From Haloterrigena sp. KLK7 (lineage in GTDB: Archaea; Halobacteriota; Halobacteria; Halobacteriales; Natrialbaceae), in contig NZ_CP149787.1 of the NCBI RefSeq assembly GCF_037914945.1, positions 3,162,001 to 3,226,000 of the forward strand: a DNA stretch of 64,000 nt, read 5' to 3'. Under the pieces are notes generated by a model, which was not told the origin of the DNA, made no database searches, and saw only the letters and a list, made by a program, of their open reading frames with translations. Positions within the stretch are counted from its first letter, which is position 1. Each line of letters starts with the position of its first letter. A program made the translations under genes and the position numbers. Positions 50,101 through 52,824 of the stretch are shown piece after piece.

Positions 50101-50155
50101 GCGGCGTAAAAGGGTGGCCGCAATGGGTAAGCGGGTCCGTTCCAACGGAGTGGGT

Positions 50156-50992
50156 ATGAAACGGCTGCCGCTCGGAATCCCGAGACTCGACCGGATGATC
50201 GGCGGGGGCGCGCCCGCCGGCAGCGTCGTGTTGCTCGCGGGCGAGGCGGGGGCCGGCGCGCGGGAGTTCTCCTACACGAGCGCAGTGATGAACGGCCTCG
50301 CCGACGCGGCGCCCGACGAGTTCGACCGCTACTACGGCGACCTCGAGTCGGGGGCCGAACTCCCCGACGCGGTCCACTACGTCTCGTTTACCGACGAGCG
50401 GGCGGCGATCGTCGACGAGATGGGGCTGGTCATGGACGACGGACTCGTCGACGCGGGGACGGACGGCGTCTCCGTCGTCGAACTCGCGGAGTCGTACTTC
50501 CAGTTGACGCCGGTGCCGACGGACTGGTACGCCGAGCGCGCGACCGATATCACCGGCCTCGGTGATCGAACCGGTCGCAGCGACGTCCTCGAGGCGCTGG
50601 GCGAGTACCTGACCGAGCACGCCGCGGGGAGTCTCGTCGTGATCGACTCCGTGACCGACCTCGTCGCGACGGCCGACGACCGGCTGGCGTGGTCGGACCT
50701 GACGGTCCTGTTGAAGGGACTCAAACGCGCCGCCCACCGCTGGGGCGGCGTCATCCTGCTGCTTGTCAACGCGGAGGCCCTCGAGCCGACGGAGCTGGGG
50801 CGCCTGAAGGAGGCCACCGACGGGACCCTGCTGTTCGAGTGGGAGAGCGGCGGCTCCGAGCGCGCCCGCACCCTCGTCGTCGAACAGTTCCGCGGCGTCC
50901 TCTCGCGACTCGAGGACGAAGACATCGTCCGGTTCGAGACGGCGATCAACGACAGCGGATTCGATATCAGTAACGTCCGCAAGATCCGTTGA
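50156..50992 (+). CDS. RAD55/KaiC-like protein with degenerate Walker A (HTR-like)
   Basis: A 278-residue RecA-fold protein. LGIPRLDRMIGGGAPAGSVVLLAG is the usual start of RAD55/KaiC-like ATPases. The Walker A loop reads GEAGAGAREF, so Lys and Thr are missing where G-x-x-G-x-G-K-T is expected. Walker B is close to normal: GSLVVIDSVTDLV near residue 155. Haloarchaeal relatives are called HTR-like proteins and may be regulators of transducers; the role is unproven. The next two genes are on the same strand. Confidence 0.85.
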   Translation: MKRLPLGIPRLDRMIGGGAPAGSVVLLAGEAGAGAREFSYTSAVMNGLADAAPDEFDRYYGDLESGAELPDAVHYVSFTDERAAIVDEMGLVMDDGLVDAGTDGVSVVELAESYFQLTPVPTDWYAERATDITGLGDRTGRSDVLEALGEYLTEHAAGSLVVIDSVTDLVATADDRLAWSDLTVLLKGLKRAAHRWGGVILLLVNAEALEPTELGRLKEATDGTLLFEWESGGSERARTLVVEQFRGVLSRLEDEDIVRFETAINDSGFDISNVRKIR

Positions 50993-51072
50993 GAGACGAT
51001 CTCCGGCGCGTATCGAGCAGTGAGTCCGAACCAACCATTAAGCCCGTCTCGTCCGAACGACGAGTCGAACGT

Positions 51073-51990
51073 ATGTCGAGCGAAGACGACGGCGGAATCT
51101 CGTTCGCGTTGCCCGGCGAGGTCGACGACTGGCTCGCCCGGGAGGCCGGCCGGCGCGACGAGAGCCGCGACGACGTCTGCCGGCGCCTGGTCACGGCGGC
51201 CCACGCCGTCGCGACCGACGACGAGATCGAGCCGAGCGACCTCGACGATCTCACGGCCGTTCGGGCCCGGCTCGACGCCCAGCGCGAGGAGTTCAGGGAG
51301 TTGCTCGAGGACGTCCGGAATCGCGTCGTCCAGGTCAAACGCGAGACCGACGCGAAGGCGCCCGCCGACCACGACCACGCCGAACACGTCGGCGAGGACG
51401 CGCTCGCGGCCGTCCGCGAGGACCTCGAGGCCCTCGACGCGACCGTCGACGACGGCTTCGAGAACTTCGAGACCGTTCTCGAGACCCTCCTCGGCGAGAC
51501 GGCGGCGCTCGACGATCGAACGACCGCGCTCGCGAACGCTGTGGTGGACCTCCGCGAACACCGGAACGCCGCCGCCGAACGGGAGCGGCGTCGAGCGGCG
51601 GTCGACCGACTCAAACTCGCGGCCAATCGACTGGGGATCCGCACCGCCGTCTGCGACGCCTGCGACGCCGCGGTCGACCTCGCGCTGTTGACCGAACCGG
51701 CGTGTCCCCACTGCTCGACGGCGGTCACGGACGTCGTCGAGACGGACTCGTTCTTCGGCTCCCCCACGCTCGAGACGGGCGAGCCGCCGGCCCTCGAGGG
51801 ACGGGTCGACGACCCGGTTTCGGCGACGTCCGAGGACGTCTTCGATGCAGTCGAGGCGGACGCGACGGAGACGAATGCGACGGCGGCGGACCGCGCCGAG
51901 CGAGACGACGGGAACGAGCGGAACGAACAGTCCAGCGACTCGAGCGCGGCGTCGGTTCTCGAGTTCGATTCGGCGGAGCCGGCCCGATGA
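51073..51990 (+). CDS. Ribbon-helix-helix-like, coiled-coil, zinc-ribbon protein
   Basis: A 305-residue acidic protein. The first 40 residues (ISFALPGEVDDWLAREAGRRDESRDDVCRRLV) follow the pattern of ribbon-helix-helix DNA-binding domains. Residues 55-190 are helical coiled coil, with a His-containing break. A zinc ribbon (CDACDAAVDLALLTEPACPHC) lies near residue 198, followed by a disordered acidic tail. No family name is recognised. Its stop overlaps the next start (ATGA), so the two proteins are probably made together. Function is unknown. Confidence 0.75.
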   Translation: MSSEDDGGISFALPGEVDDWLAREAGRRDESRDDVCRRLVTAAHAVATDDEIEPSDLDDLTAVRARLDAQREEFRELLEDVRNRVVQVKRETDAKAPADHDHAEHVGEDALAAVREDLEALDATVDDGFENFETVLETLLGETAALDDRTTALANAVVDLREHRNAAAERERRRAAVDRLKLAANRLGIRTAVCDACDAAVDLALLTEPACPHCSTAVTDVVETDSFFGSPTLETGEPPALEGRVDDPVSATSEDVFDAVEADATETNATAADRAERDDGNERNEQSSDSSAASVLEFDSAEPAR

Positions 51991-52439
51991 CCGATGACGA
52001 GGGGCTCGAGTCGGACACCGCGGGCGGTTCGGAGCCGTCGGCGTCCGATCCCGATAGCGTCGACCGCACGGGTCCCCTCGGCGACCTCGCCGCGTCGGTC
52101 GCCGACCGCGGAGACGTTCCCAGAGGCGGCACCGAGACCTCGAGCCCCGAGGTCGACGAACTGTTCGACCGCGAGGACGTCGCGGATATCGACCGCGACC
52201 GACTCTGGCAGCGCCTCGAGGACGACGAGACGGCGGTGCCTCCTCGCGACGAGGAGCGTGAACTCCGCGAGATCGAGGTAGACGGCTACTGTCACCAGTG
52301 CGAACACTTCGCGTCGCCGCCGACCGTCGCGTGTACCCGCGAGGGAACCGACATCCTCGAGATGCCCTCGCTGGGTCGGTTCCGGGTCGCCGACTGTCCG
52401 GTGGTCCTGGAGGACGAGGCGCTCGAGAAGCGGGAGTGA
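51987..52439 (+). CDS. Small Cys-containing haloarchaeal protein, coupled to the previous gene
   Basis: A 150-residue protein. The first 75 residues are acidic and disordered; the middle has a charged helical stretch (VDELFDREDVADIDRDRLWQRLEDDE), and the C-terminal 55 residues contain CHQCEHF, then VACTREGT and DCPVV. Four Cys in this spacing suggest a zinc-binding fold. I do not recognise the family. It is followed 55 bases later by transcription factor S. Confidence 0.75.
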   Translation: MTDDEGLESDTAGGSEPSASDPDSVDRTGPLGDLAASVADRGDVPRGGTETSSPEVDELFDREDVADIDRDRLWQRLEDDETAVPPRDEERELREIEVDGYCHQCEHFASPPTVACTREGTDILEMPSLGRFRVADCPVVLEDEALEKRE

Positions 52440-52494
52440 CCGGGCGCGGGCCCTGAGAGGTGCACTTTTCCTGCTCGATCCGCTACACCCGGCT

Positions 52495-52824
52495 ATGCAG
52501 TTCTGCGACGATTGCGGTTCGATGATGAAAGCCCAGGGCGATCGCATGGTCTGTACGAACGAGGACTGCGGCGCCTCGAGCGAGCGCGACCGCGAGCAGG
52601 AAGACGCGTTCGTCACCACCGAGTCCCAGACCGACGACGACGTGATCGAGTCCGACGAGAACGCCAACTTCGAGGGGAAGCCGAAGGCGACGGACGTGAT
52701 CTGCGACGAGTGCGAGAATCAGGAGGCGTGGTACACGCTCAAACAGACCGCCTCGGCCGACGAACCGCCGACGCGCTTCTTCAAGTGCACCGAGTGCGGC
52801 CACCGCTGGCGCGGCTACAACTGA
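52495..52824 (+). CDS. Transcription factor S (TFIIS/RPA12-like)
   Basis: A 109-residue RNA polymerase cleavage factor. An N-terminal zinc ribbon (FCDDCGSMM ... MVCTNEDCGA) and a C-terminal zinc ribbon (CDECENQEAWYTLKQTASADEPPTRFFKCTECGHRW) are both complete. The Asp-Glu pair in SADEPPT is the catalytic acidic tip that inserts into the polymerase secondary channel to reactivate backtracked complexes. Length and layout are typical of archaeal TFS. Confidence 0.97.
   Translation: MQFCDDCGSMMKAQGDRMVCTNEDCGASSERDREQEDAFVTTESQTDDDVIESDENANFEGKPKATDVICDECENQEAWYTLKQTASADEPPTRFFKCTECGHRWRGYN

Follow-up and report, generated by a model that had tools for sequence, protein, structure and literature searches.

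The overlapping genes ORF1 and ORF2 probably encode two components of a three-protein regulatory complex specific to haloarchaea, in which the KaiC-family protein encoded upstream would be the third; we put the probability of this reading at about 0.6. The three genes are regarded as a candidate complex because they are kept and lost together. The module gives boundaries to two protein families missing from Pfam and NCBIfam, and it separates both from tfs, the gene for transcription factor S. In the window, i.e., the whole stretch of 64,000 nucleotides that was analysed, the features are as follows.

50156..50992, + strand: gene of the KaiC-family protein (278 aa), candidate third module member; Walker B-like VVIDS kept
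51037..51042, + strand: ATTAAG, putative TATA-like box for transcription of ORF1-ORF2, about 30 bases upstream of the ATG (sequence pattern)
51073..51990, + strand: ORF1, ATG to TGA (305 aa); RHH-like N-terminus, long helical/coiled-coil region, zinc ribbon, disordered tail
51094..51216, + strand: RHH-like domain, residues 8-48; ribbon 8-14, helices 15-28 and 32-48 (RHH_1, AlphaFold, Foldseek)
51232..51633, + strand: two long helices, residues 54-95 and 108-187 (AlphaFold model)
51304..51378, + strand: hinge motif LEDVRNRVVQVKRETDAKAPADHDH, residues 78-102; 17 of 25 positions invariant
51640..51780, + strand: predicted four-Cys zinc ribbon, residues 190-236; C194, C197, C211 and C214 invariant
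51987..52439, + strand: ORF2, ATG to TGA (150 aa); start overlaps the ORF1 stop
52191..52214, + strand: ORF2 motif DRDRLWQR, residues 69-76; W74 invariant, D69 nearly so
52287..52406, + strand: ORF2 four-Cys C-terminal domain, residues 101-140; YCxxCx10Cx20CPxV
52464..52469, + strand: ACTTTT, putative TATA-like box of tfs (sequence pattern)
52495..52824, + strand: tfs, transcription factor S (TFIIS-like); TIGR01384 above cut-off; neighbour, not judged part of the module

The gene pair and its protein domains

ORF1 and ORF2 overlap by four bases (ATGA), the KaiC-family gene ends 80 bases before ORF1, and the ATG of tfs at 52495 lies 55 bases beyond the end of ORF2. A GTG at 50114 offers a possible longer start for the KaiC-family gene. 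An earlier note on this DNA had placed both reading frames, their overlap and the spacing to tfs correctly, and the pair it described is real, but it had missed the upstream KaiC-like gene with the same pattern of presence and absence. Its suggestion of an undescribed haloarchaeal module held up, as no ORF2 relative was found among 164 genomes of the phylum outside Halobacteria. The 28 orthologous loci of the pair all belong to this class, in which the genome itself is placed, and the nearest named locus is that of Haloterrigena salina. Neither ORF1 nor ORF2 reached the cut-off of any Pfam or NCBIfam family, a literature search found no paper treating these module families, and nothing relevant was found in the literature on 'HTR-like protein'.

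Leaderless haloarchaeal genes are expected to have an AT-rich peak about 30 bases 5' of the start codon. At this distance the peak was 0.70 for the KaiC-like gene, 0.60 for ORF1 and 0.71 for tfs, but only 0.31 for ORF2. Because an AT-rich peak precedes ORF1 but not ORF2, the pair is considered a putative bicistron. The KaiC-like gene and tfs probably have promoters of their own, and with its own TATA-like box tfs need not share the transcript of the pair.

In orthologs (alignment A1), ORF1 has the order RHH-like N-terminus, long helical region, four-Cys ribbon and variable acidic tail. The AlphaFold monomer model (mean pLDDT 76) has helices at residues 15-28, 32-48, 54-95 and 108-187, followed by a small strand-rich ribbon. 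Of the domains first proposed, the coil and the zinc ribbon were recovered and the RHH domain was borne out at moderate strength: Pfam RHH_1 matches 9 of 21 ORF1 orthologs (best E 4.6e-4) though not the window protein itself, the model contains the two helices of the RHH/CopG superfamily, with the RHH strand not formed in the monomer, and a Foldseek search places Arc, MatP, CdbA, CopG and VapB at the head of its list, all with E above 1. MatP and CdbA are RHH DNA organisers, and in MatP, as in ORF1, the RHH domain is joined to a coiled coil; unlike the ORF1 module, both lack a zinc ribbon and a KaiC partner. The four-Cys region is predicted to be a zinc ribbon, with invariant C194xxC197 and C211PxC214 knuckles and strands in the AlphaFold model.

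Conservation in ORF1 peaks outside the RHH domain and the zinc ribbon, in the last part of the first long helix together with its hinge. Here 17 of 25 positions are invariant; the counts are 2 of 34 for the RHH helices and 9 of 29 for the zinc ribbon. The hinge consensus reads RVxQVKREADAKAPADHxH, of which KAPADHxH might resemble the HxH metal motifs of phage tail fibres. The motif is lost in the orthologs of loci L048 and L064. Two genomes (G025, locus L043; G091, locus L060) have ORF1 cut in frame to an RHH-only protein of 82-83 aa, with the KaiC-like gene and ORF2 intact. The orthologs of L062 (genome G007) and L023 have their start beyond the RHH domain and retain coil, hinge and zinc ribbon, the hinge being altered in L062.

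ORF2 consists of an acidic N-terminus, a conserved W motif and a C-terminal four-Cys domain, in which C102, C105, C116 and C137 are invariant among 24 orthologs. None of these 24 matched a Pfam family even at E 1. The structural model of ORF2 was poor (pLDDT 66), and a fold search with this weak model gave no match.

The KaiC-like protein and joint retention and loss

The upstream protein belongs to the KaiC family by its core (PF06745, 36.7 bits against a cut-off of 26.6) and matches KaiC chains in the PDB at E 1.6e-7. Its alignment with KaiC and ArlH covers the P-loop region at the N-terminus and the strands at the C-terminus, but it stays under every NCBIfam cut-off; its best NCBIfam match, ArlH (6e-13), is far below that threshold. 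Unlike KaiC-family proteins, ArlH and CirA, it has the lysine and threonine of Walker A replaced. The motif is GEAGAGAREF in the window, and all 15 aligned rows, also when compared with solved KaiC, have Ala or Ser for Lys and Arg for Thr. Because Walker A reads GxxGAG[A/S]REF in every aligned row, both the lysine that binds ATP and the Thr/Ser after it have been lost, and the GxxGxGK[T/S] pattern for ATP is not present. CirA adjoins arlA2 and is described with intact Walker motifs (PMC13286277, PMC3941300), by which an identity with the upstream protein was rejected. The start spelled by the printed primers for cirD also differs, and the Cir proteins, CirA included, are KaiC relatives of another kind.

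To map the distribution, ORF1, ORF2, the KaiC-like gene and tfs were each searched in 145 Halobacteria genomes. Absences of ORF1 and ORF2 refer to the matches listed, where a single absence could be a missed match; three independent searches agree. Among the matches listed, the KaiC-like gene, ORF1 and ORF2 were all present in 121 of the 145 genomes and all missing in 20, to which G119 and G014 are added. G119 retains only a truncated ORF1 (the first ~94 residues; L034, 1465-1764) between mptG and tfs, a scar of module deletion. G014 has only a distant ORF1 paralog and is without all three genes, though its genus mates carry an unlinked KaiC. Also among the matches listed, one genome (G066) had the KaiC-like gene and ORF2 with no ORF1 ortholog found, and another (G021) the KaiC-like gene only. 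G121 was left out, and its reading as a module remnant rejected, because its locus is a contig edge.

The coupling of the pair proposed in the earlier note was confirmed, with ORF1 and ORF2 adjacent and in the same orientation in 120 of 121 genomes and a paralog involved in the single exception. The KaiC-like gene lies less than 1 kb before ORF1 in 105 of the 121. In 14 genomes it is more than 5 kb away, in the opposite orientation or on a separate contig, and co-occurrence is kept. In Natrialbaceae without the module, tfs comes directly after mptG, the two genes having closed up at the scar. The genes are contiguous in this family, so one deletion removes all three, and their joint loss there is weaker evidence than co-occurrence in genomes where they are unlinked. 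In a tree of mptG plus tfs from 30 loci, the label present/absent changes nine times (8-9 in bootstraps), and at least five changes are forced by well supported branches. The tree alone does not decide between loss and gain, but we read the history as repeated loss because of the G119 remnant and because distant families have the module at the same mptG-tfs site.

Eight genomes (G004, G014, G029, G044, G073, G092, G118 and G137) gave no more than a single, very weak KaiC/ArlH profile match each, with E about 2e-4 to 4e-4. They have apparently undergone near-complete loss of KaiC-family proteins, and all are module-less. At the Haloferacaceae-type loci L012, L017 and L018, a RimK-like ligase gene or mptG precedes ORF1 in place of the KaiC-like gene, and a PspA-like coiled-coil gene follows tfs.

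In the proposed complex, the KaiC-like protein would no longer hydrolyse ATP and, as a folded and perhaps ring-forming protein, may provide a scaffold or sense a ligand. ORF1 would dimerise via its RHH-like domain and coil and act as an adaptor, possibly docking on the KaiC-like partner via the hinge RVxQVKREADAKAPADHxH. ORF2 may be a small, zinc-dependent co-subunit that uses its W motif and Cys4 domain to attach to ORF1 or the KaiC-like protein. The output of the module would be regulatory and dispensable, with DNA, RNA polymerase or another target all possible.

Alternative explanations

If ORF1 were a classical CdrL-like RHH regulator, i.e., a promoter-binding dimer with the zinc ribbon and ORF2 as co-regulators and the KaiC-like protein as modulator, the RHH_1 matches in 9 of 21 orthologs, the RHH-like helices and the Foldseek list would be accounted for. 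There is also a precedent in CdrL (VNG0195H) of Halobacterium, which combines an RHH domain with a double zinc ribbon and binds the cdrS-ftsZ2 promoter (PMC7439475). Like ORF1, CdrL is found only in haloarchaea and has an N-terminal RHH, a coil and a zinc-binding C-terminus with Cys residues. Because CdrL shares it, the RHH-coil-zinc outline, which had been called unfamiliar, is not unprecedented, but ORF1 itself is not a CdrL. The CdrL-like protein of the same genome (L069) is encoded elsewhere, beside cdrS and ftsZ, and has eight Cys, a short coil and a basic ribbon, whereas ORF1 has four Cys, other neighbours and a hinge motif that CdrL lacks. BLASTP between ORF1 and the CdrL-like protein gave no meaningful match (E 0.14, coil only), and membership of ORF1 in the CdrL family was rejected.

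The ribbon is also where the regulator explanation becomes unlikely. Before helix A, 16 of 21 ORF1 orthologs have no Lys or Arg and hence not the basic or polar ribbon of the fold. Both the CdrL-like and the CdrS-like protein encoded in the same genome do have K/R in this position. Furthermore, the ribbon is deleted in the Haloferacaceae-type orthologs L012, L017 and L024, the whole RHH domain is missing in L023 and L062, and the RHH helices are conserved no better than the coil (0.55 each). Action of the pair on DNA, one of the suggestions of the earlier note, is doubtful because the ribbon is mostly without basic residues and some orthologs miss the RHH domain. Some lineages may have an ORF1 that binds DNA, but this is unlikely to be the conserved function of the protein.

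That three unrelated conserved genes merely share a locus and were deleted together by chance is improbable. Most genomes have the genes side by side, and in Natrialbaceae the losses take the whole stretch between mptG and tfs. On the other hand, mptG and tfs are spared in repeated losses, the unlinked KaiC-like gene still co-occurs, and the pairing of paralogs with DUF7504 recurs at another locus, all of which speaks against coincidence.

A motility or taxis adaptor akin to the ArlH-ArlCDE archaellum switch is very unlikely. The best NCBIfam match of the KaiC-like protein is ArlH, and ArlH is missing in 13 of 22 module-less genomes against 19 of 120 with the module (Fisher p 5e-5, uncorrected for kinship). 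The association is weak and not strict, as 19 genomes keep the module without ArlH and nine without the module keep ArlH; that with CheA is not significant (p 0.06). In the loci read, moreover, the module lies between mptG and tfs and not in an arl or che cluster, and a role in archaellum function or chemotaxis was rejected.

The neighbourhood of tfs bears on the last alternative. In 99 of 120 genomes the distance between ORF2 and tfs is at most 1.5 kb, in line with the proposed tie between the pair and tfs, but 21 genomes keep the pair without a close tfs, so adjacency is frequent and not constant. A close tfs was found in 142 of the 145 genomes and a more distant TFS in the remaining three; tfs persists in all 22 module-less genomes, where its TATA-like box is retained. 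Given its own box and its presence wherever the pair is lost, a functional link to tfs was rejected, and from the sequences tfs looks like a conserved bystander and not a subunit. Least probable of all is that the pair works with TFS on RNA polymerase, e.g., by promoting elongation or countering pausing with a helical hairpin: adjacency to tfs and a conserved acid- and His-rich hinge between two helices, which might loosely resemble a Gre hairpin tip, speak for it, but these patterns of tfs speak against it and a comparison with TFS/TFIIS, Gre-type and other known factors of the RNAP secondary channel gave no match to a polymerase-binding factor in sequence or fold.

ORF1 paralogs beside DUF7504

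Among the matches listed, every one of the 12 ORF1 paralogs has a DUF7504 gene no more than 1.7 kb away, although a genome contains only 2-10 genes of this kind; the neighbour was confirmed for the five paralogs read. The DUF7504 proteins beside them also match the KaiC-like DUF7090, and inspection of those read revealed no GK[TS] loop at the matching place. Like ORF1, to which they are homologous (E down to 5e-33, A1 profile), the paralogs have an RHH-like start, a coil and a CPxC zinc ribbon, and like the module they have a P-loop-less KaiC relative next door. They differ in that those read have no KAPADH hinge and no ORF2, in the KaiC subfamily of the partner, and in their position beside DUF5305/DUF7344 genes. 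Because the paralogs pair with DUF7504, the combination of an RHH-like/coil/ribbon protein with a dead KaiC occurs at least twice.

It has been proposed that relatives of KaiC serve as major hubs of archaeal signalling, but to our knowledge few of their partners are known. We tentatively suggest that haloarchaeal regulatory complexes of catalytically dead KaiC-family proteins with dedicated RHH-like/coiled-coil/zinc-ribbon adaptors may be widespread, in at least two paralogous versions (with ORF2 or with DUF7504), and that KaiC signalling in them could be independent of nucleotide. If true, this would be unlike the cyanobacterial clock or the archaellum motor. A conserved, jointly retained and lost partner set for a KaiC without the P-loop lysine, repeated at a second locus, provides concrete bait-prey pairs for genetically tractable haloarchaea.

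Paralog loci near DUF7504 were seen at L053-L056 and L066 and in genomes G026, G078, G017, G112, G061, G098, G040, G068, G066 and G014. Genes for DUF5305 and DUF7344 often accompany the paralog/DUF7504 pairs, a second undescribed system. The second copy in the AT-rich genome G129 (L051, 2184-2918) is an ORF1 paralog with a long extra N-terminal region before the RHH-like part.
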